NCBI RefSeq assembly: GCF_910592395.1
Contig: NC_088315.1
Location: 16,475,808 to 16,539,807, forward strand
DNA from: Lineus longissimus
Taxonomy: Eukaryota > Nemertea > Pilidiophora > Heteronemertea > Lineidae
Length of the DNA stretch: 64,000 bases
Direction: 5' to 3'
Both the position numbers and the translations under genes were made by a program. How positions within the stretch are numbered: the first letter of the stretch is position 1; each line of letters begins with the position of its first letter. The notes beneath the pieces were generated by a model, which did no database searches, was not told the origin of the DNA, and worked only from the letters and a program-made list of their open reading frames with translations. Shown here one piece after another: positions 17,178 through 58,000 of the stretch.

Positions 17178-17230
<53 letters not shown>

Positions 17231-17235: not shown

Positions 17236-17255
17236 GAACGCCACGGTATGGGATA

Positions 17256-30218: not shown

Positions 30219-30251
30219 AACGTCTGGCTTTGCGCCAGACGTTGAGACTAA
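30219..30251 (+). repeat. 10-bp hairpin followed by CTAA: Helitron-like 3' terminus
   Basis: AACGTCTGGC / GCCAGACGTT with a 5-base loop, then GAGA, then CTAA followed by T. This is the order seen at Helitron 3' ends (hairpin, a few bases, CTRR, host T). A matching 5' TC end was not identified. Confidence 0.35.
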
Positions 30252-33441: not shown

Positions 33442-33772
33442 AGATGCGTGATTTTCACTGACCTAGTATGCTGCACTTCCGTAACAAGCAGGCGATGCGT
33501 CACTAAATATGTGTAATTCACATGCATTGACATTGATATTCGGGATGAGCTGTCGCGGTACTTCAATGATTTGCGCGTCTTCCAACTCTGTCACAAGGTG
33601 TTGGAATTCGTCAACAAGATCGTCTGGTATGTTTTCATCCTACTGATACCTGCTTTCCAGACCTTCTGAATGAACTGTTTAGCTTTGGCATGGGTGGGGG
33701 CTAGGTATAACCAAGTGGGTCAAATTTCCCTGAGATGTAGCTGACCGCTTCTCGTTTAGTTGGTTGGAGCGT

Positions 33773-34195
33773 CTAGGGCTTGTTCCTATTGTTGAAGGTC
33801 AATGTGTCGGCTTCAGTGTCCCAAATCATTCCGTGTGCGGGAACCTTGGGTTTGGGGTCATCAATGTTGTCAGCTTGTGCCCTCTGGCGGATGGTTGTAT
33901 CGTTCGAGGTCCAAGCGCGTAATTTGAGGTCTGCGTCATCCATCATTTCGTTGGCTTTCTCATAGTACGTCATGGCATCCGTTGGTTGAATACTGGCGAA
34001 TATGTTGTCCATGTACGTGTTTTCTTGTATGTCTGCTGCTAGCGGTGTGTCATAGGAGTCGAGGTGTGTCTTTATTGTCGCCAACAGCATAAATGGTGAT
34101 GATACTGTCCCGAATGGTACCACTTGAAATTGGACCGTGCGGAATCTACTCTCGGGGTCATCAGGGTCTCCCAACCATAGGAATTTGGTGAACAT
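33773..34195 (-). pseudogene. BEL/Pao reverse transcriptase, C-terminal palm/thumb
   Basis: 140 codons: MFTKFLWLGDPDDPESRFRT, then VPFGTVSSPFMLLATIKTHL, then the YMDN box (TYMDNIFASI) as catalytic motif (YxDD in active enzymes; here the second D reads N), then KLRAWTSND and GMIWDTEADTL. The N-terminal part of the RT lies out of frame at 34584-34200. Typical BEL/Pao order and spacing; inactive because of frameshifts and the D to N change. Confidence 0.85.
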
Positions 34196-34616
34196 CTGAT
34201 CAGCTTCAGCTAGTTTGACATGGAGAAATGCTTTCTGTATGTCGCTACTTAATCCTACAGGGTGTATCCGAAATCTAAGCAGGATTCTGCCCAGGTCATT
34301 CAGCAGATTGGGGCCTGGTTCTAGGCAGTCATTCAGACTTGATCTTCCAGCTGCTCGGCACGATGCATCATATACAATCCGAATGGGCGTGGTTGGTGAA
34401 TCCTTTTTACGGGATGATGGGGTAGATAGTGACCGCAGGTGGCGTCGTCGTCAGGCACCTCGCGTATGAACTGGCGGTGGAGTTGGTCAACTATGATGTC
34501 ATTGTACGTACGTCGCATGTTACTGTCGAGTTTTCTGACCATGGCTCTTTTCCTTGCGTATGTGACGTCATAATTCGATGGCAATTCCGGATGGCTTTCT
34601 TTCCATGGGAGGCTGG

Positions 34617-36706: not shown

Positions 36707-37376
36707 TCAACAAAACACATGCATGTGACAAGATACAGAAAAAGGTAATCTATACTATGATTGGTCAATAGGATATTCAGGTAGGCGGGGCCTACATTCC
36801 AGGATGCGGCTTGCATCTCTTATCATCAGTTCCGACACACTCAAATGGAACATGTCGCCGAAGTTTCGTTTCTCTCAAGAGCAGGATCTGCTCTCGCTGT
36901 AAAACCTTTACAATAAGAACCGAAGAATCACCGGAATCAGTGAGAAGTAATCGCGAAAAATCTAAATGATGCAAAAAAGGATTAAGAGTGAATCACCTAT
37001 ACTGACTACAAAAAAATGTATCTTAAACTGTCATGCACATAGCCGTTTACACCAGGCCCTGGAAGGCCAAGAAATGTTCGCGCAGAATTCGATTGTCATT
37101 ACAAGTCACATTAAAACATATATGAGTCAGTTAAAAAGCCTAGTACTGGTCTTTCCTGGATCAGTGTCACTTAAATGACCATGTTACGTTTACCGCAATT
37201 CAATGTATGCTTTTTAACCCAACTAACGTTATTTCTTCGCGGTAAACGTAACGACGTCATTGTCGTTACCGTTGTCGTTTCTCGTTCGAGTTCTTAGCTC
37301 TAAAGAAACCTTCCCTACTCATGTGATAGCCCTTACTGAGTTCTATATGGATTTCAATAAATTGAACTGAATTGAA

Positions 37377-37655
37377 TTGAAATTGAATTGTTACTTTTGT
37401 ACCCCAGAGTTAAAACTTAGTGTAAAGTCATGCAATGGCATAGACAAGAGAGCTGATGTGCACAAAATGAAGAGCTGGTACCGAAGTGAGGCATCCTGTC
37501 TGTTACAGGAAGTTGTGTTTCGACTAGAGATCCAGACATGTATAGATTGCCAAAGGCTCCGTTTGAATACAATTGCTCATATCAGTTGGCTGATCAATGT
37601 CCCGGTTATCGATATTGAATTCGACAACTCTGTTTCAAGTTTAATTCTGAAATAG
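37377..37655 (+). CDS. Conserved ORF E (right arm), 92 codons, unrecognised
   Basis: Right-arm partner of 31007-31288. Same open length except one missing codon (KLSVK against KLYSVK on the left). Six other residues differ. No ATG at the start and no clear splice sites, so it may be an exon or an accidental open stretch. Preceded by an AATTG-rich simple repeat. Confidence 0.35.
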   Translation: MKLNCYFCTPELKLSVKSCNGIDKRADVHKMKSWYRSEASCLLQEVVFRLEIQTCIDCQRLRLNTIAHISWLINVPVIDIEFDNSVSSLILK

Positions 37656-38149
37656 CCTTAACATACAAACATACAAAAAAATGTTCTTTTCATGTCTGAA
37701 AAATCGAGTGAATAAAGCATGTTACCAATCGATGCAATTCTTCACAAAAAAGAAATTTAGCCACAAAAGCACAATTGTGGTACGAACAAAAGCTTCAAGG
37801 ACAGTTAGATTTCACAAATTATCGATCCTTCCGTCATTCCCATTCCGCTGTTGAGGTCATAGGTCTAGAACTCTGTATTCTGCGTGTGATCATCTTTATC
37901 TACCAATTTGCAGTCCGACATGTTGTATATGCCCAACTGTTTCAACATCCTCGGGTTTGTCTGAATTTGTGCTCAACTTATCGTATAAATTGTAGGCCCA
38001 TATGGCCCCTTGTCGAATGACTTTTCAATAACGGAACTCGTTTGAAAAATTGGTTCACAACCTGTTTTAGAATACATGTGGTTGTCGAGGAAGTCCATCC
38101 AGGGACAGAGTATGAGTTGAAAGACATCGGTAGGATATGATATAGGGTA

Positions 38150-38272
38150 GAATGGGGTAATTATAGCCCCGGTTTATATGTAGCCCCTGCAGTGTTTGAT
38201 GTATGGGGATATCAATCAATGTCATTAGCAGGGGCTACAATTAAACCGGGGCTACAATTACCCCAGTCTACC
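38150..38272. mobile_element. Palindromic MITE-like element (right arm)
   Basis: Counterpart of 27405-27520; inverted halves with TAGCCCCGGTTTA. Confidence 0.75.
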
Positions 38273-38477
38273 ATATCTTTCGCCTGTTTGAATTTTCTTC
38301 TGATTCGACTCTGCACCTTATCGAAGAACATTACACAATAACCAAGGACTTACGTGCGATATGAGTACATCGGTTCATCTTTCTATTTGGCTATTTGGCA
38401 GTGGTGAAAGATTCTGTCCAACCTATGTTTGAGAACGGTGAGTATATCGGTACATCTTTCTCTCGGCTATTTGGGAA

Positions 38478-38690
38478 GATCAGTGCCGTAGTGGTTAGAG
38501 CACCGGGCTCATAATCAGGAGGTCGTGGGTTCGCTTGGTCGTGTTTCGTCTTTGTGTACTTGAGCAAGGCACTTTACCCTACTTGCTTCTCTCCACCCAG
38601 AAATAAATGGGTACCTAGCTGGTACCCAGAGATGGCAAACTATGAATGTTAGCTGCAGCTCGGACCTGTGACACTCCCAGAGAGTAGAGC
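38478..38690 (+). mobile_element. tRNA-derived SINE (right arm)
   Basis: GTGCCGTAGTGGTTAGAGCA head, CTCATAATC anticodon-like loop, GGTCGTGGGTTCGC B box (the left copy keeps GGTTCGATT), then GAGCAAGGCACTTTACC and CCAGAAATAAATGGGTACC in the body. It is flanked on the left by two diverged copies of an ATCGGTACATCTTTCT segment. Confidence 0.75.
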
Positions 38691-38716
38691 TTGAATCGCG
38701 AATGTACAGGCCAATA

Positions 38717-39690
38717 CACTAGTGGGAGACTTTTTCCGAATTATCAGCGGTTTCTCTAACTTTTTCTTGATTTCTCCGACATTGTCCGGATTGTACTTTG
38801 TCTAAATGTCAGAATTCCATAAAACTTGTGAAAAAACTAGGCCTTCCCAAATGTAGGCCATTAAAGATCAAAGGCCGTTGTTAGATGGGGTTAATGAGGT
38901 GGGATGCAAACACCCAGAGTAACCCTAAGTGTGAATACCAATTAGCTCCTCTCCTTGGACCCTTTGCATTTCACACATGAGTGCACCTGGGTTGGCCCTC
39001 TCCGTGTTTGAGAAGGGGAGACCTTGTAATACTAGATGCAATACAGAAATGGCTGATTTTTGCAATTTAATTTCAAAATTTCAAATTAATGGCTAGAAAT
39101 TTGATGTTTTGCAATTGAATGTCATGCAGTTTATTTCATCAAATAATGTAGGAAATGACATTATTCCTGAACTGGAAGTGAAATTATTGAAAAAAAATTA
39201 TTTTGCAATTAGATTTGAGCATGGTGTACAATTCAATTCAAGTCTGTATCATGCAAATAGATACTGTCAATATTTTGTAAATTACACAGTTCAGTACATC
39301 AAAAATATCTTTAATTCACATGAGGCTTTGTTTCTTTATGCTATCAAAATAGGCATATTTTTGTAAAGTCTCCTCTGCTTAAACATGGAGAGGCCCAACC
39401 CAGGTGCACTAATGTGTGACATGCAAAGGGTCCAAGGAGACGAGCTAATTGGTATTCACACTTAAGGTTACTCTGGGTGTTTGCATCACCCCTCATTAAT
39501 CCCATTCAATTGAGGCCTTTGTTCTTGAATGGCCTACTTTTGGAAGACCTAGTTCTTTTCACAGGTTTCATGGAAATCTGACCTTTTGGACAAAGCCGGA
39601 GAAATGTCGGATAATGTCGGGGAAATGTCGGAGAAATCAGCAAAAAGTTAGAGAAACCGTTAATATGTCGGAAAATGCTTCCCACTCGTG
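38717..39690 (+). mobile_element. Foldback element, intact right copy (974 bp)
   Basis: Starts CACTAGTGGGAGACTTTTTC and ends with its imperfect inverse before CTCGTG. The two inverted ends (38717-39010 and about 39380-39690) are about 300 bases each. Flanking ATA on both sides (38714-38716 and 39691-39693) may be a 3-base target duplication. The centre carries a plus-strand open segment (39109-39366, 85 codons; LNVMQFISSN, IIPELEVKLLKK, FAIRFEHGVQFN), also open in the left copy. No transposase. Confidence 0.75.
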
Positions 39691-40036
39691 ATAGAAGTAT
39701 ACAACGATGGTGAAAACATCACAGGAGTTGGTGTCGACGTTTTAACACTGATCTTATCTGTTTTTCTCGAAGGGGAGAAGAGATAGCGCAGTATTATGGC
39801 GTCTGCACAAATTACAAAAATAGGACAAGAAATATATATTTCTAAGACACTTTTTTCGGGCCCCATCAAAACAACAGATTCAAAATGATTCAACTGATCC
39901 AAGGACTGGGCAAAAATCATGTCATCACTTCATCATTACTGGTACATTGTAATCCAGGGGCGTAGCTAGCTTTTTGGTGTTGGGGGCGGCAAAAGGCTCT
40001 GCGGGGAGGTTCTCATTTTCTGGCGACTTCTGAAGG

Positions 40037-40077
40037 GGGGGGGGGGCATTTCCCCTTGCCCCCCCCCCCCCCCCGCC
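40037..40077. repeat. G tract followed by C tract (right arm)
   Basis: About 10 G, a short GGCATTTCCCC link, then about 15 C. The left arm has only one long tract at the same place (21838-21868). It interrupts a segment that is otherwise well conserved between arms. Confidence 0.95.
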
Positions 40078-40384
40078 CCACTCCCCGCTCGCTACTCCCC
40101 TGTAATTGTAAAACTGCAACTACCTGCAGATATGCTCTTGTGTACTATAATTTTTTTGCTCAAATTTATTTTTCTTGTCTAAATTGGAAGTTCCCTACGT
40201 TTCCAGGTATGGGTGTACTTGAGACCTCGGGTAAAAAAGGCATCCAGATTTCAAACTTTACCTAACGATAGAGTCTTGCATTCGTCCTCACCGGAAATTT
40301 CGAAGAGGGGATACTTAATTGTCAAGTTGTGGTAAATAGATGGCTTAGATTAATGAAATTAGATATAATCCTCAATCTCCGGTT

Positions 40385-42015
40385 GATTCTCAATCTACAG
40401 AGTCTGGCCATCACAGGAATATACTTTTTCATGATATATTTACAAAAATATGGTCTCACTGGCCAGTTAAGGACTTGTATTTTAGTAGGCCCAGATCAAT
40501 GGGCAAAAGATATTTGAATCTTCAAAAATTTCATGATTTTATTGTTATATGGATGCCACATATAAATTGTTGATAATGATTGGGCACTTTTTTTACCAAA
40601 ATCTATGTACACAGAATGTATATATGGATTGTGTTTGGCGTGGAACTGATCTCCTGATCTTTAATAGCCGATGAGCTTTAGTTTTGTTCGCAGATTTTGC
40701 AGCACAGACGTCATCATGTTGGCTCCCTCCCGACACGACAGGGCCAGTGACACTCGGTATTGTCAAACATATTTACCAAACAAGCCATGACAACATTATC
40801 CCCATATGAGACGTAATCAGACCTGGTGGGATATTTTCTTTGGAGAATGACAATACAGTCACATTAGCGTTGTTGTCGTTATCCTTATATAACATCATCT
40901 TTGCCGTCATCTCGGAACGATTCAAGCATTTCCTGAAGGTCGTCGGAAGTGTTCGGGCTTCGGACTGTTTTTAGGGATGCCAGTAGGGAATCCCTCACGT
41001 AGCTTTTTCAAATTCGGCAATTTACGTAATACAGTTCATTGTGGGTATAGTGTGCACAATGTGATAAAATGAAAAGTTTAAGGAACATTTCTCTAGTTTT
41101 AGGATTGAAATGAAGTACCAATTGTATGAACTGGTAAATGCAAATAATTTTGGTATCAAATGCTAGGTCCAAAAGCCTTTAGATAATGTTTTGATTCCAA
41201 TGACCATTTCAACTTTTATAGTCAAAAACGTCAAAATACTAACATGTTAACAAGTGTACCACAAAGCGGCAGCATAATACGCCCGTCGCACCGCACTCCG
41301 AAACTAACCACGAGCATGGCAAATGTACCGGTAATTTACGGTTGCTGCATGGTCTAATTGTATAGCATTTCCAACTCTGTCACTTGAGATGTCGGCTTGT
41401 ACTTATATACACCCAACTCCACAATGATACAGAAAGATGACGCCCATCGGGCTACTTGTTCTTGCAGTTACAGTCCAGAATGTGAAGTCCGAGATTACCG
41501 CCTGGCTGCCATATTTGATATTGGATCAGGCTCAAAATCAATAAGTGACCTCTCTCACCTCACCCCATCATTTCACAGAAAATTCAAGGCCATCTGATGA
41601 CTCGTTCAGCAGTTACGATTAGAATCTGAAATTTAAGATTGCCGCCTGGCGGCCATACCGGATATCGAATTGGGCGAAAATCACTTGGCATCCCAGCCCC
41701 ACATCCCAGTCGCATAGTAAGATGAAACCAATCCGACGAACCATCGGCGAGTAATAACACTTTTTATTTGTTTGTATAACGCCCCCTAGTGGCCAAACGA
41801 GGATGGATATAAGGTCGAATGTTACTGTCGCCTAGGGGTACATAGGAGCAGAGATTTGGATGAATAGCTTCCAGTGATCATGAAGTTTTCATATTGCGTA
41901 ATTTGACACAAACTTTGACCCCTGTTAAATTGAAAAGAGGTCAAGGTCAAAACCCATAGGACATGTTATGTTCCTTATAAGAAGTACCTGTCATAATAAA
42001 TTCAGCAAGCTGCCA
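40385..42015. other. Right-arm-specific DNA without a recognised gene
   Basis: About 1.6 kb missing from the left arm (which jumps from about 21540 to 21550 here). The second half (41380-42015) is made of diverged units of the GACCTT repeat family (GCCGCCTGGCGGCC, ATGCCCCTGGTGGCCAAG). The first half is AT-rich with no ORF of note. Confidence 0.55.
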
Positions 42016-42655
42016 CCAATACTGAGTGAGTTCTCACACTTTTTGTGTTTTTGCATAATGCCCCTGGTGGCCAAGCCATGAATGATATAACGTCCAAAGT
42101 TAGTCTGTAAGTTACTGTCACCTAGGGATACACATGTACATAGATTGGGATCAATAGCTTCAGTGGTTTACGAAATGTGAACATTTCGTAATTTGACACA
42201 AACTCTTACCTCTGTGGCCTTGAAATGAAGGTCAGTGTCAAAACCAGTACAACGTATTATGTCCCTTTCCATGAGGTATCTGCCATAAAATTTTCAGCAA
42301 GCGGTGACCAAAATTGGCAGAGTTATTGTCTTGTTTGTGCTTTCACATACCACCCCAGAGTGGCCGAACCGTGAGTGAGAACAGGCCAGATATCGAACTC
42401 AACCTTACCCGCCCCCTGTTCTTACCACCAAAAAATGAGAGTAAAATATCTAACGGTTCTAAAGTTATAGCCCGGACGCACAACGCACGACAAGCCCATG
42501 CCATAATACGTCCGTCTTGCGACGGGCGTATAAAAAGGTGGTATCGGTAGGGTAGGAAAAGAAGATTTTAGGTATTGCGGATCCTCCAAACAGGAGATAG
42601 AAAGCTGGGGTAGCAGAACTTACGAAAGGATTACGAGTTTCATCATGTTCTATTT

Positions 42656-43003
42656 TTGCAAAGATATTTTTTATTCCCAAACAGGACTGGAACCGAGCTC
42701 CTAGGTCATCATCTTACAATCTGCACTAATGAGACACTTAACAACCAACATTTGGCCTGTCAAAACTATCATAGAGTATTGGAACAGTCTATTAAATGGA
42801 TTGGGATTTATCATAGAGTATTGGGTAGATTTTCTTTCACCTTTAATAAGCATTGTTTAATTTCGAATATCCCAGCCTTTAATGAGACCAGAAAGTCAAA
42901 CAATAGGCCACTAGCTGTTCTGATGGCCGAGATGTTTGTTTTAAAGTCTGATCATCCGTTTGAGACTTCATGTATAACGCTAATTATTGCTGGTCAAGAG
43001 TGA
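42656..43003 (+). pseudogene. Conserved open segment (right arm), unrecognised
   Basis: 115 codons without an initiating ATG. The second half (NYHRVLGRFSFTFNKH, then FNETRKSNN, LAVLMAEMFVLKSDH) matches the left arm at 20800-20546. The right copy contains an internal duplication of about 45 bases (repeating CATAGAGTATTGG). It may be an exon remnant; no family recognised. Confidence 0.35.
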
Positions 43004-43190
43004 GATTCCCTTTTCATTAAAGCGGATTTTCCTAAGAGGGGTTGCCCGTTGCCCGGAGGTGCTCAGAAGCGCCTTATGATCTGAGTTTAGGATTTTGATT
43101 GTCCAGGGTGATACCTATGATTGTATTTTTTCAACAGTCACACTTATTTGCGAAACCAATTGATAAATGTAATAAATCCTTTCAGCTAAA

Positions 43191-43448
43191 ATGACCCAGC
43201 TTTTAGTAAGTAAACTATTCCAACAGTTGATTATCAACAAAGAGCTTCTAAATCCTGATCTCGGATCTTTCGCTGCGGCGTCATTTTTACACTGCAGCAT
43301 CATCTGCGTCATGATGAAGGTTTGTTCAACGTTTAATATTGTGCCAAGTGGCAAGGGGTTTTGCTGTCAGCTTAGTCACAAGACTGGAACATGCTTGGGA
43401 AAAGAACATGCGGTTGGGAAATTGGGAAGCTTCATGTTCCAAGAAAAG
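43191..43448 (+). CDS. Gene C, exon 1 (right arm)
   Basis: 86 codons from ATG (MTQLLVSKLFQQLIINKE) to donor AAG|GTAATA in phase 0. It has an internal hydrophobic segment (about residues 28-44) that could anchor the protein or act as an uncleaved signal, then two close Cys pairs. Nearly unchanged compared with the left arm (two amino-acid and two silent differences). Intron 43449-43739 (291 bases) ends in TCGTAGCAG. A CTTTCAG just before the ATG leaves room for another upstream exon. Confidence 0.6.
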
Positions 43449-43739
43449 GTAATATTTTTAAATTTCCTCCTACAATCATGCGCATAGTTTGGGGAATCTG
43501 GGTTGAAACCAGGGTACAATATCAATGTCGCTTCATTTGCTCAGAATTTTTAGAAAATCACATTGACTTACGTTTCGCAGAAATAATTAATAATTAATCC
43601 TCAAATTCTTGGTAATAACATAACATTTTATGCTAATGTGCTCTACAAATGTGCTCATTGAAAACACAGTCCAATTCCTAAAACCAGTGAACCTAAGGAA
43701 CCCAACAGCTAATGCAATGCTAAACATCTCTCGTAGCAG

Positions 43740-44711
43740 GGGCATGTTGCCATGAAATTGATGCATAAGATAAGAATCATACCCTCCATTCCGTCGAATG
43801 ACTATCACTATATTGGTTTTGGTTATCGCAAAGGCTATCTACTGGCAATGTCAAGAGAAAATTTACTGACTTTCCGATTCAATAAAACCAGTGTTACTTA
43901 CAACATAGTACATAATGTGTGGCTTTCCCGGCCCAGAGAAGAATTTGGTAAAATCAGGCCTTATTGTAGTTATGACAGTATAGTTTTTTTTACTTCGTCA
44001 TTAAAGAAAGCAGACATTCAATATTTTGATTTTATCAGGGAGAGTTTTGGTCACATTTCCCTTGTTCATAAGGACAAGATGTTTATAAAAACTACTTTGA
44101 AAAGATCATTTAGTTACCTTAAGTGGAGAAGAAACTGTTTGTCTCTTGTTGTTGAGCAAAAAATTGCTACATGTACTATAAGTGTAAATCAAAGACGGCC
44201 TTGGGTGTATATAATATACGATGTCATATTTGATAACAGAAAAATTATTTTTAAGAATGGAGTAATAGGAATAAATGGATTACGTGGCTATCATATTTTT
44301 TATGTGGATGTGATTTTCAACTTTTTAATTGGGTTTAGGCAAGATCATTATACAGTATCCTTTTACAACAAGACAGCAACAACTGTTAACCTGATCAGAT
44401 CTGTCAGATTTCCATACAAAGTCAATGTGAATATAAAAGGTTATTCTCGAAGCTATGTTCGTTTCATATATTCGAACTTCCAAGGGTATTATATTGGACT
44501 GGATTTTAAACCACTTGTCTGCTGCTTAACGGACAGGCTTTACAATGGATTCATTAAACACTTCATGAGAACGCTTCGTATAAAATCACCCAGGTATTTG
44601 GATCATGATCTAGCAGTAGACTCGTTTGGCAACTTGAATTACTTCCAGAGGACTCATCATAAGAAACAAGACTTGTTTGCAAACATTAATGTGTATTCAG
44701 TGATTAATTAA
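43740..44711 (+). CDS. Gene C, exon 2 (right arm); unrecognised, possibly beta-trefoil-like
   Basis: Continues exon 1 in phase 0 (GGG CAT GTT GCC ATG) for 323 codons to TAA, giving about 409 residues in all. Motifs as in the left copy: DYHYIGFGYRKGYLLAMS, YIIYDVIFDNRKIIFKNG, YYIGLDFKP, HFMRTL, DSFGNLNYFQ. It aligns with gene A along its length: GYLLAMS with GYLRISS, IIFKNGVIGINGL with AVLTNGVTLNMLK, GNLNYF with GNFLFF. No indels relative to the left copy although the flanking DNA has them, which supports selection for an intact frame. The FGF-type trefoil assignment is a hypothesis from motif spacing only; cellular role unknown. Confidence 0.7.
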   Translation, partial: GHVAMKLMHKIRIIPSIPSNDYHYIGFGYRKGYLLAMSRENLLTFRFNKTSVTYNIVHNVWLSRPREEFGKIRPYCSYDSIVFFTSSLKKADIQYFDFIRESFGHISLVHKDKMFIKTTLKRSFSYLKWRRNCLSLVVEQKIATCTISVNQRRPWVYIIYDVIFDNRKIIFKNGVIGINGLRGYHIFYVDVIFNFLIGFRQDHYTVSFYNKTATTVNLIRSVRFPYKVNVNIKGYSRSYVRFIYSNFQGYYIGLDFKPLVCCLTDRLYNGFIKHFMRTLRIKSPRYLDHDLAVDSFGNLNYFQRTHHKKQDLFANINVYSVIN

Positions 44712-45992
44712 GCTCATTTTACGCCAGGAAAACTGGTTTAAGGCATTTTGTCCCAATCATTATTAATGCAACCAGAGGAATCTCCGTCACAGGTGGCCAA
44801 TCTATAAAGTACAATAGTTATTTCATCTAATTAGTGAACAAAAAATTGTCAAAAACTGTTTTAAAGGTTTATACAAAGTCATCGATTGGCAAACAAAAAC
44901 AATTTGTCAGTTTTTCTTACAAAAAGATCTCTCGCAGCACCCATTCAATGTGTGAATCCAGCAACAGGCCAAAGGTTAATCGAATCCACTAGGGTGTGTA
45001 ATCACTTGTTTCAAAGTTACCTTTTCAGGGCTCCTGAGGAGGTCATTTTTTATTCCAGAAAAACAACAATCAATGTAAAACGACAATGTCGAAACCCATC
45101 ATGTATTTTTCTGCAATGAAACCTTACAGAGGCGATAGGATTTATTATGCGTGTCTCTAGTCCTGCTTGCTTAAACTGATTACCACTGAAACAAGCTGCT
45201 GAAAAATAAGTAAATTCTGACCGAGGAGACGTTCATTACCTATCATAAATAGAGTAACACATGTAGCTACTTCGTAGTAAATTAGGTGATGGGCATCTTC
45301 ATGCGATAAAAAGAAATCGAACTACTGTCAACATGCTGCATTGAATTTATCAGGTCAGGGAAAATGTCCAACATTTATCCGTTTACTCGAATTGCTTATT
45401 GCTGGTCACATGACTGGCATATTTTGGCTGAACGGCTCACATGAGTTCTGTTCAGTGGACATTACATTAGACAGAATTCTATCACTAGTAGGTTTCATTG
45501 TAAGAAACTGTTTTAGGAAAAGTTCATTAATGGAATAAGTTATGGGTTTAAAATAACAATGATGTTGATTAACACGCTTTATCTCCAATCATAGTATTTT
45601 AAAAGTAGGGCAGAACTTTGCCGCTGGAATTTTTATGCATGCATGTCAGCTTTAAGACGTTTAAGCCAGGTCGAAAACACAAATGCGTGACCGCCCAAAT
45701 ATGATATACTACCAGCAAACCGCCGTGGCGCTACCGTATAGTTAACTGTGCTTGGGATGTAGAGCATCGTAAGGAGCATCACTTCACACACATTCAGCAA
45801 AAATCGGACAGTTCCTTACTATTTACATGGCTTTGCTACTACAGTTTGCTCCAAGATGTTTAGAAAAGTTGCGTATCGCTCTCATTTCAAAAGTATCCAA
45901 TCGATTTTGACAAAACGCACCTCTAAAAAAATCTTCATGTCAAGATCCTTTCATTTAGTCAATATCCAACTGACTTCTGGAAAATAACGCCA
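44712..45992. other. Right arm between gene C and ORF B, with a 730-bp insertion
   Basis: 44712-44954 and 45689-45992 match 18347-17761 on the left. About 44955-45688 is present only on the right and is bracketed by TGA, a possible 3-base target duplication. The insert has no recognisable ORF. Confidence 0.55.
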
Positions 45993-46385
45993 TTGACATT
46001 GCCAAGTAAATCGCATACAAACATTACGCACGATAATGTATTGTGTGATCATCTGCACCGTATTTGCCACGACGTACGAAAAGAACTAAAATGTTCCTGC
46101 CGTGAGGTGATGCCCCATGGTCTGTTATGGCGCATGGCATTCTACCAGGACTACGATTCCATTACACTGGATGCATTGCGGCATCAAACGCTTCCTGGTT
46201 TTTTTACGGAGGACGAATACGAAATTGCGCCACCTATGTTTTCTTCATCGGAGATGATACAAAATGCTTTGAAATATTCCACGGACGATTTCAACCTGCG
46301 GTTCACGAATCACGGGATGAAGAAAACCATTGGAGGTAATAACTCTGTCAGCCCTCTTGGAATGAACTGCATGGCCTCAAAGTAG
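45993..46385 (+). CDS. ORF B (right arm), 130 codons, unrecognised; possible upstream exon of gene A
   Basis: Open from a stop-free stretch without a clear ATG at its start. Pattern: CDHLHRICHDVRKELKCSC, then ALRHQTLPGFFTEDEYEI, then MFSSSEMIQNALKYSTDDF, then MKKTIGG. It lies 145 bases upstream of the gene A exon on the same strand. A donor-like GAG|GTAATA ends at 46335, but joining there to the gene A acceptor (46530) gives the wrong phase. The left copy is frame-shifted in a T homopolymer. It could be an exon of A with a different donor, or an unrelated decaying ORF. Confidence 0.4.
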   Translation: MTLPSKSHTNITHDNVLCDHLHRICHDVRKELKCSCREVMPHGLLWRMAFYQDYDSITLDALRHQTLPGFFTEDEYEIAPPMFSSSEMIQNALKYSTDDFNLRFTNHGMKKTIGGNNSVSPLGMNCMASK

Positions 46386-46530
46386 AGAAATCAAGATACC
46401 AAAGAGTGATCGGTGACGCTAATTTTGATGCTCCATATCAGAAGCACAGGAAGCGAATACAAAGTGTTCTGCGGACTGTTGACTAATGAATCCCTCATCT
46501 AATAGTATTTCTCCAATTGTGATCAAATAG

Positions 46531-47493
46531 GAGTTGATTGGTACAATACGGTACAAATATCATTGGAAGATTTCACCTCCTACCTTTGAACTACATCCTC
46601 CTAGGGATTATTGGTATTACGATGCAATTTCTGGATACCTGAGAATTTCGAGCAAAAGTGGAGTTCATAAGGCTATCTCTCGATTTTATCACAATCGTCA
46701 ACTGTTCAGCTTCCGACTTTTCAGCACATTTAGACACGGCTCTCACTTGCACCTTTTCAGGGACCAGTGCTTGTTCAGAAATTCATTTATTACTTTACTG
46801 GGAAAAAGGCCAGGGAGACTGTTTTATGAGCTTCATGATATTTTTGGCAAAGGGCATGCATATCGAATGATCCCTCCTCGAACTGATCCATGCTCTCGGG
46901 TAAGTCCACGGCTTACGCCTCACTACAGTAGCCACAAAGTTGTAATTAATTGTCCTAAAGAACATTGTACTCGAATACTTTTAACTATTTACACTGTCAT
47001 GTTGATAAAAAGTACAAAAGAAGCGGTTTTAACAAATGGTGTGACTTTAAACATGTTAAAGCATAAAATCTCACCCACACAAAGGGTTTTAGCATTCACC
47101 TCGGACAACGATGTGGTCATGCAGACCAGAAAGAAAGGGTTTATGGTTTATCGAAGAACCAGGCAATACAAGGGCAAACACAAGCCAGTTAAGAAAACGA
47201 CAAAATGGCCTGTTCTTCCGACCTACTGGAGTAGGAAACATCAAGCCTACCTTGAGTTTTATTTCCGAGGAAGTGATGGTGTACTGATTGGCTGCAGGGT
47301 AAACTGCCAACTAAGGACACCTCTAGTACCTTCAATGCCTCCATTTTCCCCGATTGAATTCATATATGCTCGTAAAAGGTTAGGTAGAGAGTATATGCTC
47401 ATGATAGCACCAAATGGGAACTTTCTGTTCTTTCTGTTTCAAAAGAGAATCGAAAATATCAAATATGTGGCTGTTTTTTCTCCAGCTTATTAA
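46531..47493 (+). CDS. Gene A, terminal exon (right arm); hypervariable relative to left arm
   Basis: 321 codons from the acceptor CAAATAG to TAA. A stop lies immediately upstream in frame and there is no early ATG, so the protein must start in another exon. The phase-0 acceptor position equals that of gene C exon 2, consistent with common ancestry. The first 80 residues are nearly fixed between arms (5 differences). Residues 119-146, 176-187, 225-231, 242-252, 277-290 and 303-308 are densely changed, almost all by amino-acid-altering substitutions. Intervening blocks such as TRKKGFMVYRRTRQYKG and GCRVNCQLRTPLVPS are untouched. Probably extracellular by analogy with cysteine content and its relation to gene C, but no signal peptide is visible in this exon. 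Confidence 0.65.
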   Translation, partial: ELIGTIRYKYHWKISPPTFELHPPRDYWYYDAISGYLRISSKSGVHKAISRFYHNRQLFSFRLFSTFRHGSHLHLFRDQCLFRNSFITLLGKRPGRLFYELHDIFGKGHAYRMIPPRTDPCSRVSPRLTPHYSSHKVVINCPKEHCTRILLTIYTVMLIKSTKEAVLTNGVTLNMLKHKISPTQRVLAFTSDNDVVMQTRKKGFMVYRRTRQYKGKHKPVKKTTKWPVLPTYWSRKHQAYLEFYFRGSDGVLIGCRVNCQLRTPLVPSMPPFSPIEFIYARKRLGREYMLMIAPNGNFLFFLFQKRIENIKYVAVFSPAY

Positions 47494-48362
47494 CAAATAT
47501 TGCTTCACCCGTTATTTGACATGGGCTTGACATGGGGCGGAAATTTATTGTGCATTGGTACGCTAATTACTGCCGCCTACAGGAAATAAAGTTCCTCATT
47601 CTGGGATATTTGCGCATCATGTGTACGGATAAACGACGTCACTAGTCGGGTATGTCTGTCAAGTTTTGTGTATAGAATTCTGGAATGCAGACGTCTACTA
47701 TATCAATGGCAACACCTCAAAGCGTGAACTTCGATAGCAGATGAGATGGCATTTCAATCAAGAGAGGAAAATACTCAATGTATCAATGATTCATGCAGTT
47801 ATTATGCCTTTTAACTTTGTCCCTTTTCACCGTGCTATCGCACTAAGAAGTAGAAACACTTTAAGGACATCTCATATGCAGCAGAAGTGAAGTGACAGAC
47901 ATTTCCTACTGATTTTCATATTTACAGATACATGTCCTTCTTGTGGCAGTTCATAGCATTAACAGTACTGACGCTGTAATATGAATGTTTTTGGGTCATT
48001 GTGTAAACAGGCACAGGACCCCACGACCTATTTTGGGTGAACCCCGTAGAAGGAGAACGCCTTGGATTAGGAGAAAGCTGGTTCATAACTTGTCCTTTTG
48101 AGAGCAAATATATGATGAATTGGGAATGAATCTTCTTTATGTTTGGAACCAAGACCCAACATAACACTGATAATTTGTTAGGTGGCTGCATTTACCTAAA
48201 TTGTATGTCCCTAGGGAAAGTCATTAAGAGAAAGTTTGTTAGACATTTTGGCTATCCCACCAAAAACACGAAGAGATACATTTTGCATTCAGTCTCCCCG
48301 GCCAGCAATGGTATATGCTCCCAAAGCTTAAAGTTCCTCAAGCGTGCCTGAGGCCAAGATAA
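47494..48362. other. Right arm downstream of gene A
   Basis: 47494-47715 and 48280-48362 match the left arm 15052-14609. 47715-48280 is right-specific and contains a 70-codon open segment (48139-48351) that runs into shared DNA; no family recognised. Confidence 0.5.
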
Positions 48363-48455
48363 ATGTTGCCAAACATGTTACCGTCCACCGCTCGCATGGC
48401 CGTGGTGCCACCGCATGAAAAATTTCATTATTTCAATATTTTCCAAATCCAAATA
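48363..48455 (-). repeat. R copy 3, inner fragment
   Basis: Inverse of about 14550-14640. It ends at CCAAATCCAAATAA where the tyrosine-recombinase element begins. Confidence 0.8.
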
Positions 48456-48780: not shown

Positions 48781-49430
48781 ATGGCATTCGCCCAGGATAA
48801 TCGTTTTCGTGTCCTAATTTTCGGCCACAGCTATATCAAAAGGCTTCAGAAATTTGCCGTCTCCGGTACTCGGTTCGGCCAATTTCGGCCTGGCCTGACG
48901 GGTCTTAATCTTCAACTGGCTGAGTGCAACGTTGTCTTTCGGGGCGTGCCAGGTTTGAATTTGGCGCGTATCTATAATTTACAGGTTTTGTTCAACAAAA
49001 TCCGTGCTTATTACCCTGATTTGATCATCCTGCAGGTCGGTGGAAACAACATGTGTAAGTCGTCCAACTCTGCTGAGCAGTTAGCGAGTGACCTCTCTAG
49101 GTTTGCTTTTGAGTTGCATCAACTCTGTGATTGTAGAGTTCTGATTTCCCAATTGATCCCTAGAGTTCGGTGCCCTCCGGGATATAATGTTAAGGTACAA
49201 CTTTGCAACAAACGCCTTGCCGAACTCAATTCAGTTTCTGCAGCCGTGTCGCTTTGGAAACATAAGGCATCTGGACTGCAGAGCGTTGGATCTACGACAC
49301 TGACGGAGTCCACTTTAATGACCTGGGCAACTTCAAATTGTTCAAGAGCTATAGGGCTGCGGTCGGTTTATCGTCCGCAGAGTTTAATTCGGTATTACAA
49401 TGCTTCTTTGCTTTCAGGAAAACTAGGTAA
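48781..49430 (+). pseudogene. SGNH/GDSL-type hydrolase-like ORF (one frameshift)
   Basis: The first reading frame (from ATG 48781) shows the block I nucleophile motif as GHSYIKR, a conserved Gly region (FRGVPGLNL), and the block III Asn as QVGGNNM. Near 49260-49285 the frame shifts; the continuation in another frame has WIYDTDGVHFNDLGN, containing the DxxH catalytic pair of block V, and stops at 49430. All four SGNH blocks can thus be seen, at a length (about 215 codons) usual for the family. Such esterase-like ORFs occur in CR1-type LINEs and, as I recall, in some Ngaro elements. Here it precedes gag. Its role in the element is unknown; it may act on lipids or carbohydrate esters. Confidence 0.75.
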
Positions 49431-50164
49431 AACCATTGCTTCCCTTAATATGGGACGCTCTCCGTAATTCATTTCCCCTTTATATCGGCTTTCGCCCTTA
49501 GATTGGGTTATTTGTTTAAATCCGTTTATGCCTATGTCACGTCACGGTGACTTCAACCAATTTCTCATTTTCAATTCCTGATTCCCTTGAAATGAGACGT
49601 ACATTACCTTTTTATCCCCTCCAACAAGCTGTTGGTATTCGGCTCCCTACAGGAGTCTTTTATTTGGCTACATGGTAGTCTTTGGCTCCAAAGAGGGTCT
49701 TTTTGGCCCCACATCCAAAGGGCATTCGATCAGAAGCTTTCCTAACAACAACAACGCAAATGAATAATGAGGGTACTGAAGTTTACTAAACGTAAGCCTA
49801 GGGTCATAAATTATGGTGTAGTAGTGATTACATAATTCAATTTTCGGCCTTATTATATTGCCCTCCCGGGGATTTGCAGCGCCCTGCAGGGTCTGCTTTT
49901 ACTTGGGCACATGGGGAGCGTTTGCTCCCATGAGGTCTGCTTTGGCCACATGATGGTCTTTGACCCCCTATAGGGGTCCGTTTGGCCACGATGATGGTCT
50001 CGGCTCAACGTGAGTCTGTTCCGGGGTGACTATAATTATAACAGCCCGGACGGGTAACATTCACCACGGTTTCGGCCTATTGTCGATTCCCTGGCAGAAC
50101 GTCTTCCGCTGGGAGATGTCGAGTTAAGAACACGGCTTACTGTGCTTCCTTCTCTTCCAGCAGA
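49431..50164. other. Internal untranslated region of the tyrosine-recombinase element
   Basis: No ORF of note. It contains repeated short units with the pattern GGTCT(T/C)TTTGGC or TGGTCTTTGGC at about 49640-50010. Confidence 0.6.
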
Positions 50165-51480
50165 ATGGTAAACACTAAACACAAACGTACCCAGAAGACT
50201 TCCGGCCGGTCGGACAAGAGTCGTACCGGAAGAGTCAAGCCAGGGAAACGCCCTAAAACTGGTGACGGACCCGCGACGAAACGGAGGAAACAGGATGCGG
50301 ACAACCTCGGATCACCCGCTGACCTCCAATCACCCGATTCTGGCACATCACGTGATCCCGGACCAGATCTGACTACGGATGCTAACAATCGGGACAACGG
50401 TGCAACCCAGGTCGACAAACAGGATATGGCCCACACGTTCAAACTGGCTAATGACATGATGTCTAACATGAATGCCATGATGGCGAACATGAACATGTTT
50501 TTTGCCGGAAAGGCAGTAAACACTCCGTTATCTGGGGCACCAGGTGTTCCCGGGGCACCTCTTCCTCCCGAGGTCTTTGCCGTCGAGGACCTCGACTCGG
50601 CACGTGGCGACAAGGTTACTGACACGATTGTCCCGGATCAACTCTCTAGTAAGAATCAGGTCATTGCTGATGGTTCGAAGGTCCCGGTGGGTGCCTCGTT
50701 TTCTTCGGTTGCTTGGCCTTGGATGCCCATGTCAAGTTGGAACACAAGGAAAAGATTTGGGCCAACGAGTACTTCGACATCGCCAAGCTTTTGAACCCAG
50801 CTTCACACAAGAAGCAATCTTTTAAGATAAATGGAGCAGGCACCGATGGGAGCGAGTCCCTTACCTTCTCATTTGGGACCCCTAAGGTTAAGATCACTTC
50901 TTTTACGCAATGGCAGTCGGCTTTCGCTATATTCCAGTCAATATATTTGGACAAATTTCCAACCTCATCCAAGCAGCTCCTCCGATATGAGGCCACCTTT
51001 AAAGATTTAATGGTCAGAGGGGGTGACTGGATGTTCTATGACGAGGGATTCCGCCGCAATATGGCGGTTAACCCTCACGGCTGGGATGAACTCCTATGGG
51101 AACTTTGGGTGAGAGCAATACACCAGAAACGTAATAATTCCCAACCTACCCAGCCCTTTCGTCAGGGCAAAAAAGGGTCCTCAACAAATCCTGGTGCCTC
51201 TTACCGAAAGTTTCCAGCGGGAACCTGCTGGCGATACAATGGTGGGAGACCGTGTTCTGGCTGCAAGTTTCCCCATAAATGCTCCGAATGTGGAGGCCCG
51301 CACGGGGCAGTTCAGTGCGTCAGCCAGAATCGCGGCAACGGTAAACCAGCCCTTAGTTCTTCCCAATCATCCTCCCCATCAGCCTCTAACCCTCGTCCAA
51401 AATCCATTGTCACCATACCTAACCCCGCTAGACGCTACAACAACCTATCCAATGCAAAGCCGGCTGCCGACGCCAATTAA
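50165..51480 (+). pseudogene. Gag-like ORF of the tyrosine-recombinase element (frameshift near 50700)
   Basis: ATG at 50165 begins a very basic N-terminus (MVNTKHKRTQKTSGRSDKS) followed by a Met/Asn-rich helix and a Pro/Gly linker. At about 50700 the frame shifts and continues (50713-51480) through KIWANEYFDIAKLL, FTQWQSAFAIFQSIYL, and a C-terminal Cys/His cluster (CWRYNGGRPCSGCKFPHKC followed by CSECGGPHGAVQC). The WxxAFxxFxxIY segment and this Cys/His cluster are typical of Gag proteins of DIRS/Ngaro elements. About 435 codons in total. Confidence 0.8.
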
Positions 51481-53046
51481 GCCTCAAGTCCTAGCGAAAT
51501 ATTTAGAAGGTTACGACCATGAATTAACCACATTTCTGCTGGATGGTTTCACGGACGGCTTCCGTTTAGAATATCAGGGAGTTCGCGCTAGCAGTTTCTG
51601 CCCGAACTCGCCGTCGGCTAGTAAGCATCCAGAGGTCATCGATAAGAAAATTGCATCTGAGCTACAAGAAGGTAGAATTCTCGGCCCGTTTGATTCTCCA
51701 CCTACGCCCGATTTTAGGGCATCCCCCATTGGTGTTGTCCCTAAGAAGGAACCTGGGGACTTTCGTATGATCCACAACCTGTCGTACCCTCGCCAAGGCG
51801 ATTCCATTAATAAGGGCATCCCCAAAGATCTTACTAGTGTTAAATATTCTTCTATCTATGATGCAATTTCCTTCATCAAAAAGCAGGACAAACAGGTTTA
51901 CCTAGCGAAATGTGACGTTAAGTCGGCTTTCCGTATCATTCCCGTTGCTCCCGAAGATTACCCCTTGCTTGGCTTTGAGTGGCGGGGAAAATACTATATG
52001 GATCGGGTGTTACTGATGGGGGCCAGCATTTCCTGCTCCCATTTCGAAAGGTTTAGTACTGCCATAGAATGGATTTGCCTAAATAAGCTGGGTTTTTCTT
52101 CCGTGGTCCATGTGCTGGACGATTTTCTTTTTATTTCGCTCTCCAAGGACGCCTCTAAGAGGGACTTGGAAAAATTTGAGGCCTTTTGTAAAGAGGAAGG
52201 CATTCCGTTGGCCCCGGAAAAAACCTTCTGACCAGCCATTGCTCTTCCATTCCTTGGCATTACTCTTGATGCAGAAAAAATGGAGGCCCGATTGCCCGTG
52301 GACAAGATTTCAAAGTTTAAGCTAAAACTTGATTATTTTTATCCAAAAACAAAGCCATGCTGTTTGAGTTTCAGTCACTGCTTGGGTGCCTCAATTTTGC
52401 CTGTTCCGTTGTCCTGCCGGGCCGTGCATTTTCCAGGCGGCTCATTGATCTTACAATAGGTTACGCTAAGCCATATCATCATATTCGTATTACCAAGCAG
52501 ACTAAAGAGGACCTCCTCGTTTGGCGTGCTTTTCTTGACCAATTTAACGGTAGATCATTTTTTCATGGCGACAACTGGTTCTCAAATAATCAGCTACAGC
52601 TCTTCACGGATTCCTCGGGCAGCATCGGATTTGGCGCTCTATATAAAACGCATTGGTTTTACGGGATCTGGCCCGTGGCATGGAGACAGTTTAACATCGC
52701 CACCATGGAGCTGTTCCCTATCGTGTTAGCGGTTTTGATATGGGGCAAAAATTGGGCCAACCAGAACATAGTATTCTTCACTGATAACCAAGCCATAGTG
52801 TCCGTCATAAACAAACAAACATCTAAAGAACCGCAGATAATGTCCCTGGTACGGTCCCTGGTTAAAGCCTGCCTCGTGCATAATATCGTTGTGAGAGCAA
52901 AGCATATTCCTGGGAAAAAGAATGTATTCGCTGACATGCTTTCTCGTTTACAGATACATGCGTTCTGCAAACGGGCGCCTTGGGCGGACCCAACGCCCAC
53001 ACCGATTCCTCCAGAGCTTTACCCGGATGGATGGAATCTGCGTTGA
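51194..53046 (+). pseudogene. Reverse transcriptase-RNase H of the tyrosine-recombinase element
   Basis: The frame overlaps the gag 3' end; the true start is unclear (candidate ATGs at 51239 and about 51449). RT motifs in order: RASPIGVVPKKEPGDFRMIHNL, KCDVKSAFRIIPV, LMGASISCSHFERF, VLDDFLFI (catalytic LDD). An in-frame TGA lies at 52229-52231, after which the frame stays readable to about 52345, where a one-base shift moves it to the 52357-53046 frame. RNase H motifs follow: LFTDSSGSIGFGA, TMELFPIVLAV, FFTDNQAIVSVIN, HIPGKKNVFADMLSRL. Order and spacing are those of DIRS/Ngaro pol. Confidence 0.88.
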
Positions 53047-53852
53047 GTGAATTGCGCAGTAACATGGTTGCATCGTCCACTATGGTGGCTTATCGTAGGA
53101 CCTGGGACATTTTCGCTCAATTTTTCAACGACTACATCAAAACGAAACTATGTCTTCCTATTTCGGTGCCCATTTTAACTCTTTTCATTGCCTTTTTGCA
53201 CGGCCGTGGGTATTCCCCTTCGTCTACTGCGTCCAGCATGTCGGCTATATCCTATTTACATAAGCTTAATGACATGGCTGACCCGACCAAATCATTCGTT
53301 GTGGCTAAATTACTTTGCGCCGCCAAACATTTGCGTGCGCACCCGGATGTCCGCTTGCCCGTTACCAGTGAAATCCTTTCCAAATTATTGGTTGCGGCCC
53401 CACTTGTTACGTCTTCACACTATAACTCGGTCATGTTTCAGACTGCCCTAGTACTTGGTTTCAGTGCCTTGACGGTCGAATCCGATGGGCTCCTGGTATC
53501 TTTTCGAAGATTTAAGTCTAGCAACACACAAGGCTCTCAAACCTTGCGCCTTTCTGCTAGGTCGCAATTTTGCCCGTTAGAACACGTGAGGGGCTTTTTG
53601 GCTGTACGGGGTTTATCACCCGGGCTGCTTTTCTGCCATCCCGGTGGCTCTCCTTTCCTGCGCAAGGACTTCGACGGTACACTCAAGCGTGCACTCTCTC
53701 TCTGCGGTCTAGACTCTTCCCGCTTTAAGGGGCACAGCTTGCGAATTGGGGCTGCAACACAATCCGCAATCGAGGGCAAATCCGATGCCTACATCCGGGC
53801 AGCAGGCAGGTGGTCATCCGATGCCTTCAGAAAATATATCCGTGTTTTATAA
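52980..53852 (+). CDS. Tyrosine recombinase (integrase) of the Ngaro/DIRS-like element
   Basis: Overlaps the RNase H end in another frame; the first ATG in frame is 53031. N-terminal SAM-like part (TMVAYRRTWDIFAQFFNDY, GYSPSSTASSMSAISYLHK) and a catalytic part ending with HSLRIGAATQSAIEG (the HxxR box), then AGRWSSDAFRKYIRVL (W in place of the second His, and the Tyr nucleophile). The first catalytic Arg is expected in the LGFSALTVESDGLL segment, where related proteins read LRVSE-like; here TVES lacks the Arg, which may mean lost activity. Intact frame otherwise. It would cut and rejoin circular element DNA at the target. Confidence 0.85.
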   Translation: MGGPNAHTDSSRALPGWMESALSELRSNMVASSTMVAYRRTWDIFAQFFNDYIKTKLCLPISVPILTLFIAFLHGRGYSPSSTASSMSAISYLHKLNDMADPTKSFVVAKLLCAAKHLRAHPDVRLPVTSEILSKLLVAAPLVTSSHYNSVMFQTALVLGFSALTVESDGLLVSFRRFKSSNTQGSQTLRLSARSQFCPLEHVRGFLAVRGLSPGLLFCHPGGSPFLRKDFDGTLKRALSLCGLDSSRFKGHSLRIGAATQSAIEGKSDAYIRAAGRWSSDAFRKYIRVL

Positions 53853-55012: not shown

Positions 55013-58000
55013 CTAGATAGCATTTAAGAAATTTCCCCATTTTCCCACAAAGTCTGTTCTTTTTTTGTGGCATTTTTCAATATTGATTTGGAGTTTTATT
55101 GTCTGTTTGAGATGTTGAAGGTTTGGTAGGCTATTGTTTAGTTTTGTTTTGTATATATATTCTTTTGTAATAATTTTGATATGTTCTATTGCAAGCGACT
55201 GCCCTGGACTTCCAAAAATGATGTCTTTGATGTTAAATAGTGGTATGTTTAGATGTTGACAAAGGTTTAGTAAGAGAGTTTTGGTTAAATTGCATTCCCA
55301 CAACAGGTGTTGTAAAGTTTCTTTATATATTAAACAAAAACTACATGTATTGGTGTTTGTTAGGCCACATTTGTATAACCAACTATTAACAGGTAATGTT
55401 CTATGTAATATTTTATATTGCAACATTCTTAGTTTGGTGTCAATTGTGGCCCGGTAAGGGAGGCAGTATATGTCGCTCCAGTCATCTTCAGTGAGGTTGC
55501 AGTTAGTTATGGTTGTCCATTTGGTTTCTGATTTTTCAGGTCTTTTACTTGTACTTTTAATTTTTTGCCAATAGAAATGTTTTCCCGGTTTTTTAAGATT
55601 TTTTATCTTTGTTATGCTAAGATCGACACTTCGGTCAGATTTGATCCCCCATCTTTTATTCTTTTCTTCCAGTTTTTTGGTACTGCATGTAACACAGCTA
55701 AGAGTTTGATCGGTTCTTTTTGAATTCCATATTTTGTCGAGAATTGTTCCCATGTATAAAAGTTCCCTGTTTCGTCAACTAAATCATTAAGATGTTTAAC
55801 ACCATGTAGTTGCCATTCATTGTAGAAGATTGTTTTGTTGTTTATTTTGATATTTTTATTATGAAAAATCATGTTTTTAAGGGGATGCTCTTCTTTTGAG
55901 TCAACCATTGTTATCAAAGATTTATAAACCTCTTGCCAGAAAGGGTTTAGGTGATTTTTAAAGGTTGCATGAGGGTCTCTTGAAACTGAAAGCCAAATTA
56001 AATTTCCGCCATGCTTAGTAGTGTCAGAAAGGATAAGTGTTTTCCAATTGGAAAAATTTAGATCATTGTGTAATTTCTTAACCCATATCAATTTTTGGGC
56101 CATACAGAAGTATTTTATATTTATCATTTTTAAACCACCATTGTCATAGTCATTGCATAGCGTTGTTCTTTTTATTTTTTCATTTTTATTGTCCCAGATG
56201 AAGTTAAAGCAGATCTTTTCTAGCATTCCGAAACATTCCTCTGATGGATTTGGCAGTGCTGTAAACAGGTGTATTAATTTAGAGAGTGCTAGTGACTTAA
56301 TGATACAGATTTTCCCATACATAGTTAGATTTCTCCCTGTCCAGATATTTAGTAGTTTTGAAACTTCTCTGATTTTGTCTACATAGTTTGTTTCAGTAAA
56401 ATTTTCCTCATCTAAATTGTATTTTATTCCCAATAAAGTGAACTTTCCCTCTAATTGCCATTTTATATCCTTGTCATTTCCCAGATTGTAGTTTAATTGT
56501 TCAGTGAGCCCAATCTTGATAGCTACTGTTTTGGTGTAATTTATTGTCAACTCTGACACTTCTGAAAATCTATCGAGGAGGTTCATACAAGATCTGTAGT
56601 TGTATTCTGTATTATCGAGGAAGAGAGTTGTATCATCTGCCAGTTGGCTAATTAAGTATTCCGAGTTGTCGATTTTTATGCTTTTTATGTCTTGGTTGTT
56701 GATGGAGTTGGCAAGGATCTCTGCTGCCAGAAGAAAAAGATATGGGGAGAGGGGGTCCACCTGCCTGACTCCTCTTCCTAATGTAAACCTATCGGAGCAG
56801 TGCCCATTGTTTATTATTATTATTTGGATGTTTTGGTAGAAGATTCTTATCCATTTTCTTATATTTTCCCCAAAATTGAAGTACTTCATTGTCCTATTTA
56901 CAAAATTCCAGTCAAGAGAGTCAAATGCCTTCTCAAAATCGATAAGCAGTATAATACCAGGCATATTGTGTTTTTTCATCTTAAAGATTAAATCCCATGT
57001 GATACGAGTGCATTCCCCTATAAACCTACCCTTTACAAAGCCCTTTTGATATTTTGAAATCAATTGATTTAAGTTTGTTTTGATCCTGCTAGATATAACC
57101 CCGGACAGTATTTTATAATCGACATTTAAAAGGGAAATTGGGCGCCAGTTTTTCATAAGTTTTTTATCTTTACCAGGTTTAGGGAGGCATGTTATTACTC
57201 CTAGTTTTTGATTGTCCGATAGTTCGCCCGTTAAAAAAGCCTTTCTGAAGGATCTTATCATTGCAAGTTTTAATTCACCCCAAAAGTCATTATAAAATTC
57301 CACGGTAAGACCATCTGAGCCAGGTGATTTATTTAGTTTCATTGTCTTCAAAACAGCTTTACACTCTGCCTCACTAATATCATTTTCCAATTCCATTGCT
57401 TGTTCATCTGTTAATTTTTGTATTGTATCATCTTCTGTGAAAAAGATATTTAAGTTTTCATCTGTGTTATTTGTTTGTTTCTGTTTATAAAGATTTTCAT
57501 AGAAGGCCTGCTGCTCCTTTAGAATATCATTTATTTCAATTAGCTCGTTTCCATCATTGTCCAACAGTTCTGTAATGGCTTTTTCTTGAAAGTGTCTGTT
57601 TTCTAAATTGCAGAAGTATTTTGAGTTTTTCTCGCCCTCTAGATGCCATTTTGCTTTTGCTCTTGTTATTATCCCATCTACTTTATTATCTCTTAGTGTC
57701 TTCAGTTCATTTTGCACTTCAATGTATTTAGTTAAGTTTTCTGCATTTGGATTAGCATTATATTTTATATGTAAAGCATCCATTTTTTTGTCTAATAGTT
57801 TCTCTTGTTTTTGATTTTCCCTCTTTTTGGCCGTTGAATACGCTATGGTTTTTCCCCTTATTTGGGTTTTTAGTAACTCAAAAGCAAGTTGATCACTTAG
57901 GTTATTGTTTTGATTTGTAACATCATTATGACTCTTTTAATTTCCACTACGTATTCTTCATCCTTTAGTAACGAGTTGTTAAACTTCCATAGCCCTGGGC

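Follow-up and report, generated by a model that had tools for sequence, protein, structure and literature searches.

The window analysed here is a stretch of 64,000 nucleotides from Lineus longissimus (C8:16475808-16539807, within a searched genome of 391 Mb in 30 contigs). It contains a degenerate palindrome that is interrupted by insertions and has more homology beyond its arms; the aligned blocks of the arms are 89-96% identical. Each arm carries a unit of three exons, consisting of a PAN-like exon followed by exon B and then by exon A (PAN-B-A):

46531 to 47493, plus strand: exon A of the right arm (A_R), 320 codons and a stop, with near copies in the genome
15053 to 16015, minus strand: exon A of the left arm (A_L), a near copy of A_R
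43737 to 44711, plus strand: exon B of the right arm, a 324-codon orphan exon that has its own stop and a phase-0 acceptor
18348 to 19322, minus strand: exon B of the left arm, the counterpart of the right-arm exon B
43186 to 43448, plus strand: PAN-like exon of the right arm, ending in the phase-0 donor AAG/GTAATA
19551 to 19813, minus strand: PAN-like exon of the left arm, the counterpart of the right-arm PAN-like exon
about 14579 to 31578, plus strand: left palindrome arm, carrying its PAN-B-A unit on the minus strand
about 37087 to 48436, minus strand: right palindrome arm, carrying its PAN-B-A unit on the plus strand
47585 to 47590, plus strand: AATAAA, a possible polyadenylation signal 92 bases past the stop of exon A

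Other features are also present in the window. A Laminin_G_3-type exon lies at 6607-7362 (plus strand, E=6.5e-7); exons of this type form an array of nine copies (one partial), all on the plus strand of the 264 kb examined and eight of them spaced 10.5-16.4 kb, and dN/dS exceeds 1 in 6 of 15 pairs among six copies. The spacer of the palindrome holds the remains of a Pao-type retroelement (32482-34450, minus strand, Peptidase_A17 and RVT_1 matches). An element with reverse transcriptase and weak phage-integrase-like matches (50165-53852, plus strand) is presumably of DIRS type, and the stretch 55013-57783 (minus strand) is LINE-like, with reverse transcriptase and zf-RVT matches. A GDSL-lipase-like ORF (48781-49467, plus strand) is located just beyond the right palindrome arm, a tandem repeat spaced at about 108 and 235 bases occupies 59326-60943, and a tRNA scan found none.

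Exon A directly follows an AG acceptor in phase 0 and lacks an ATG at its start, and is therefore probably a last exon; the TTG given as its start in the list of open reading frames is no evidence for the real start. An AATAAA is found at +92 to +94 after the stop in four of six units. The 320-codon frame is open in five of the six near copies, the sixth (A_2p) being broken by one stop and a 2-bp deletion; when 83 random changes were simulated, the frame stayed open in 90 of 5000 runs. By all sequence tests made, exon A looks like a real coding exon. Protein database searches with exons A and B as queries gave no match at E<=1, and Pfam returned nothing beyond chance-level matches for the nine members of the A and B families (DUF4911 at 0.038, CBFB_NFYA at 0.046 and Stonustoxin_helical at 0.075, two members each). 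PDB profile searches for exons A and B gave a monooxygenase (E=0.042) and sucrose-6-phosphate hydrolase (E=0.16), both of which are taken as chance, while the A family alone gave no match; an AlphaFold model of exon A, built with the four window sequences, had a mean pLDDT of 30 and was unusable. A forced alignment of exon A with exon B yields 24% identity, and homology of the two is not claimed because the hhalign probability is 0.6%.

A search of the genome found at least six near copies of exon A, all on C8 within 373 kb, in six units that stand in both direct and inverted orientation with differing flanks; the PAN, B and A exons are present in every one of them. Over 7.6 kb, the identity of units 5 and 6 reaches 99.9%, and this near-identical pair (C8:16625211-16629380 and 16653509-16657678) could be a very recent duplicate, a product of conversion or an assembly duplication. 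Distant relatives of exon A with 29-35% identity occur as two copies each on C11 and C19 and as one copy, with two fragments besides, on C5; all five that are full-length are preceded on their own strand by a PAN-like exon. Both C11 units retain the order PAN-B-A, as does C5, although its exon B is broken up into two frames; on C19, exon A comes directly after PAN. As the PAN donor and the acceptors of A and B are all in phase 0, and the three exons recur in this order, a transcript could end in either B or A, and the two may be alternative last exons of one gene. No AATAAA or ATTAAA is found within 800 bases after exon B in the right (44712-45511) and left units; an AATAAA is present at +129 after exon B in three other units. 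A simple scan upstream of five units found no convincing signal-peptide exon, with one isolated candidate in unit 1 only.

The upstream exon belongs to a very large family with dense clusters, judging from the best 150 of 395 candidate matches scored genome-wide; examples of such clusters are seen at C10:14.49-14.75 Mb, C19:2.6-3.3 Mb and C12:15.01-15.04 Mb. A PAN-like exon of C19 matches Pfam PAN_1 (PF00024) with E=5e-4 and 20.2 bits, just under the curated cut-off of 21.4, and one of C11 has a weak match to PAN_4 (E=0.019). Pfam gives no match for the PAN-like exons of the window or C5, a PDB profile search with the PAN-like exon gave none, and an AlphaFold model of the window exon (pLDDT 63) had no PDB match at E<=0.001; cysteines are conserved in four relatives. 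The assignment to PAN stands on one relative, from C19, which scores slightly below the Pfam cut-off.

The preliminary description reported 59 amino-acid differences, about nine silent codon differences and no indels between the A exons of the two arms, and a recount agrees closely, with 59 of 320 codons replaced, 10 silent and no indels. Altogether there are 83 nucleotide differences between 46531-47493 and the reverse complement of 15053-16015, distributed over codon positions 1, 2 and 3 as 34, 24 and 25. The tight clusters reported earlier are likewise present, codons 241-253 containing ten replaced and one silent and codons 278-291 nine replaced and none silent; the clustering is beyond chance (index of dispersion 2.38 in 30-bp bins, permutation p=0.0002). 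Among 16 palindrome blocks tested for clustering two reach p=0.001, namely the exon A block and 21534-22228, in which the clustered mismatches fall in a poly-C stretch (alignment judged by eye). The downstream non-coding DNA, described as about 97% identical, has 5 differences in 160 bp. The proposed excess of about six replacements per silent change against three under neutrality fails, however, because codon counting inflates the ratio: a per-site count gives 67 replacing differences in 750 sites and 16 silent differences in 210 sites, a ratio of 1.17 (one-sided p=0.34), and four pairwise methods give a dN/dS of 1.18-1.43.

The two C11 units stem from a duplication of their own, with A exons that are about one third identical to the C8 exon A. 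Between these two exons 36 codons are replaced and 5 are silently changed (dN 0.059, dS 0.029); the nucleotide differences amount to 45/903 in the DNA alignment and 46/906 in the codon alignment. Replaced columns common to the C11 and window pairs number 15 of 33, with 5.5 expected, and none of 295 circular shifts reaches 15. When the four distinct intact C8 copies are compared with C11, 15 columns are again shared (6.4 expected, 0/295 shifts), and within the columns that are not conserved in the family 15 are shared against 8.2 expected (p=0.003); silent columns of C8 and C11 show no coincidence (0 against 1.5 and 0 against 1.0 expected). At columns pre-set by the other pair the ratio of replacing to silent changes is 18:1 in the window pair (p=0.10) and 18:0 in the C11 pair (p=0.02), which together give 36:1 where neutrality expects about 30:7 (p=0.004); columns outside the pre-set ones have ratios of 0.78 and 0.99. 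Widening the pre-set columns by one codon gives p=0.012 and by two codons p=0.27, and the same test on three other C8 pairs gives 12:2, 10:1 and 9:0, none of which is significant alone. Changes unique to A_R share 5 columns with C11 (2.6 expected, 31/295 shifts), those among the other C8 copies share 10 (4.0 expected, 2/295 shifts), and exon B shares 4 with its C11 pair (2.0 expected, 32/301 shifts), which is not significant. Variability at these positions characterises the exon A family and does not stem from one conversion patch.

Exon A has also been compared with its surroundings. On C11 the A exon (45/903, 5.0%) is more diverged than the two introns (13/1170, 1.1%; p=1e-7) and than all aligned non-coding DNA (26/1422; p=3e-5), and its replacing sites diverge about five times as much as the introns (p=2e-8). 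The outer flanks match the exon in divergence (13/252, 5.2%; p=0.87), so that the C11 contrast depends on the low introns; exon B of C11 (23/960) gives p=0.03 against the introns and 0.38 against all non-coding DNA. In the window pair, exon A (83/963, 8.6%) exceeds both the nearest non-coding DNA (27/671, 4.0%; p=3e-4) and all palindrome non-coding DNA (433/7479; p=0.001). Two palindrome blocks (8.8% and 9.0%) exceed exon A in turn, and these blocks together with the C11 outer flanks weaken the argument from a divergence peak. The silent sites of exon A are raised against the nearest non-coding DNA at p=0.04 in both pairs; those of the window pair are not raised against the whole palindrome (p=0.29). 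A_R is the outlier of the C8 copies, its exon being 7-9% from all others and its nearest alignable non-coding DNA about 3-6%. The three tested C8 pairs without A_R have no peak (L-1 is equal to non-coding DNA, L-5 and 1-5 are below it). Non-coding sums exclude the stretch upstream of the PAN exon, which cannot be aligned between several units, and, for units 5 and 6, the DNA downstream of exon A. Over 32 columns, the residues unique to A_R match distant relatives in 7 and the alternative residues do so in 8; because the two match about equally, A_R seems to represent one old exon type and the other copies a second, and an old exon split, kept while conversion levelled the nearby introns, explains part of the signal.

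The copies of exon A exchange sequence and have a mosaic history: informative sites conflict among the copies, and codons 1-135, 136-222 and 223-320 (borders by eye) favour three different trees, for which the M0 lnL is -1922.1 against -1969.5 for one tree, with 14 more branch lengths. Codon models were our own GY94-type implementations; unit 6, which equals unit 5 in exon A, was entered once in the models and column counts, and the broken A_2p was either coded with its stop and the stretch past the deletion as missing or omitted. On a single tree, M2a is preferred to M1a for exon A (2dlnL 19.6, p=5e-5; 14% of sites with omega about 7), also when the broken copy is left out (p=9e-5), and the same comparison gives p=4e-4 for exon B, the intended control. 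A dN/dS above 1 that persists after removing recombination, as envisaged in the preliminary description, is weakly indicated with three segment trees (p=0.023 for exon A, 0.094 for exon B) and is lost when gamma rates along the gene are added (p=0.70 and 0.82). A single omega near 1.2 with gamma rates fits exon A as well as a selection class does. As the copies are mosaic and the support is lost under segment trees and gamma rates, the site models are no proof of selection. Constraint is stronger on exon B than on exon A (M0 omega 0.72 against 1.24; pairwise dN/dS of exon B 0.37-0.97), and a branch model for A_R gives an omega of 1.46, not different from 1.

The best explanation, which we hold with slightly more belief than doubt, is that selection diversifies fixed positions of exon A while conversion homogenises the units. 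In this reading exon A would close the coding sequence of a small multicopy gene in which an exon further upstream encodes a PAN-like domain; units repeated in direct and inverted orientation would exchange sequence, so that much of each unit is kept alike. Selection for difference would act on a family-wide set of exon A positions that is dense in the C-terminal third, and copies would thereby come to differ at those positions mostly by amino-acid changes. Of this reading the sequences show the exon architecture, the mosaicism, the positions shared with the C11 pair and the divergence of the exon above its nearest introns; the case against includes a whole-exon dN/dS near 1 and not significantly above it, an exon B control that behaves likewise in the site models, the inconsistent polyadenylation signals after B, and the simple scan that found no signal-peptide exon. 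The diversifying selection suggested by the preliminary description gains support from an independent pair, whose replaced positions coincide with those of the window pair, and is left unproved by the codon models. Positive selection may be the cause of the exon A pattern, in which case the variable positions could form a binding surface whose variable partner might be a microbe, prey, a mate or self.

A history without positive selection is considered less probable but is the main competitor: weakly constrained loops, uneven substitution or conversion, two old exon types kept by chance and homogenised introns would together produce what is seen, with both the clusters and a dN/dS near 1 resulting from a mixture of relaxed and constrained positions. 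This agrees with a whole-exon dN/dS that is not above 1, the equally good fit of an omega near 1.2 with gamma rates, the C11 outer flanks that equal exon A in divergence, the silent sites that are raised against the nearest non-coding DNA, and an A_R that looks like an old type and not a fast one (7 against 8 of 32 columns); relaxed loops would likewise yield shared variable positions. It is less easily reconciled with the 36:1 ratio at the pre-set columns where about 30:7 is expected (p=0.004), and it needs homogenised introns to account for C11 replacing sites that diverge some five times as much as introns (p=2e-8). Moreover, the silent changes show no visible tendency to fall in the clusters (p=0.39 in the window, 0.29 on C11, with only 10 and 5 silent codons).

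The clusters might instead be conversion patches from diverged copies that are absent from the assembly, residing on the other haplotype or in lost paralogues; this is regarded as improbable. The patchwise conversion raised by the preliminary description is borne out as far as mosaic exchange is concerned: the trees change along exon A, codons 226-253 of A_L equal those of A_2p exactly, and units 5 and 6 hardly differ (99.9% identity) throughout 7.6 kb. However, among the six best-scored near copies the clusters of A_R occur as a whole in none of the other five, and imported patches would be expected to bring the usual silent rate and not to fall on the positions of the C11 pair. That the arms arose during assembly, through the head-to-head joining of two haplotypes, is hardly credible, for although arm blocks with 89-96% identity might be alleles if the animal is very diverse, and units 5 and 6 are nearly identical, the six units are spread over 373 kb of a single chromosome, some in one orientation and some in the other, and their flanks differ; besides, the C11 pair independently repeats the pattern of replaced positions.

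An extension of the reading in which selection diversifies exon A, speculative and rather unlikely as a whole, is a recognition family specific to the ribbon-worm lineage. A constant PAN-like exon would be spliced to either the more conserved B or the hypervariable A, and conversion between palindromic and tandem copies would reshuffle A, creating variety at fixed surface positions and leaving the remainder uniform, thereby forming a germline diversity generator with an immune, self or gamete role. More generally, the apparent excess of protein change between palindrome arms shrinks when it is counted per site, and credible evidence returns once an independent duplicate pair is taken as the standard of comparison. 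Should selection be confirmed, these orphan exons would make a ribbon-worm candidate for a variable recognition system, with defined positions to examine.

Judging by titles and the beginnings of abstracts, no description of the exon A family was found in the literature searched. The upstream exon resembles PAN/apple-domain proteins through its C19 relative near the PAN_1 cut-off and through its conserved cysteines; it departs from them in that the window exon has no Pfam match and exons A and B have no significant Pfam, PDB or protein-database match. Nemertean toxin genes are described in PMC10674772 as duplicated and positively selected, with gene duplication in Pilidiophora. The toxins named there are of other protein classes, and PAN does not occur as a whole word in the searched text of that article; the two cases are alike in their tandem copies, animal group and dN/dS evidence, with no toxin or secreted identity implied for exon A. 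Another comparison is exon 5 of the human red and green opsins (Teshima and Innan 2008, as presented in PMC3924837), which diverges between duplicates that exchange sequence, while the adjoining introns are alike; there the divergence peak is read as selection resisting homogenisation at target sites. The fit is incomplete, in that the opsins have few known functional residues whereas exon A has many positions in an orphan domain present in several copies, and the outer flanks of exon A on C11 are not low. As with the opsins, however, the duplicates of exon A exchange sequence and, in the window and C11 pairs, the exon diverges above its nearest introns.
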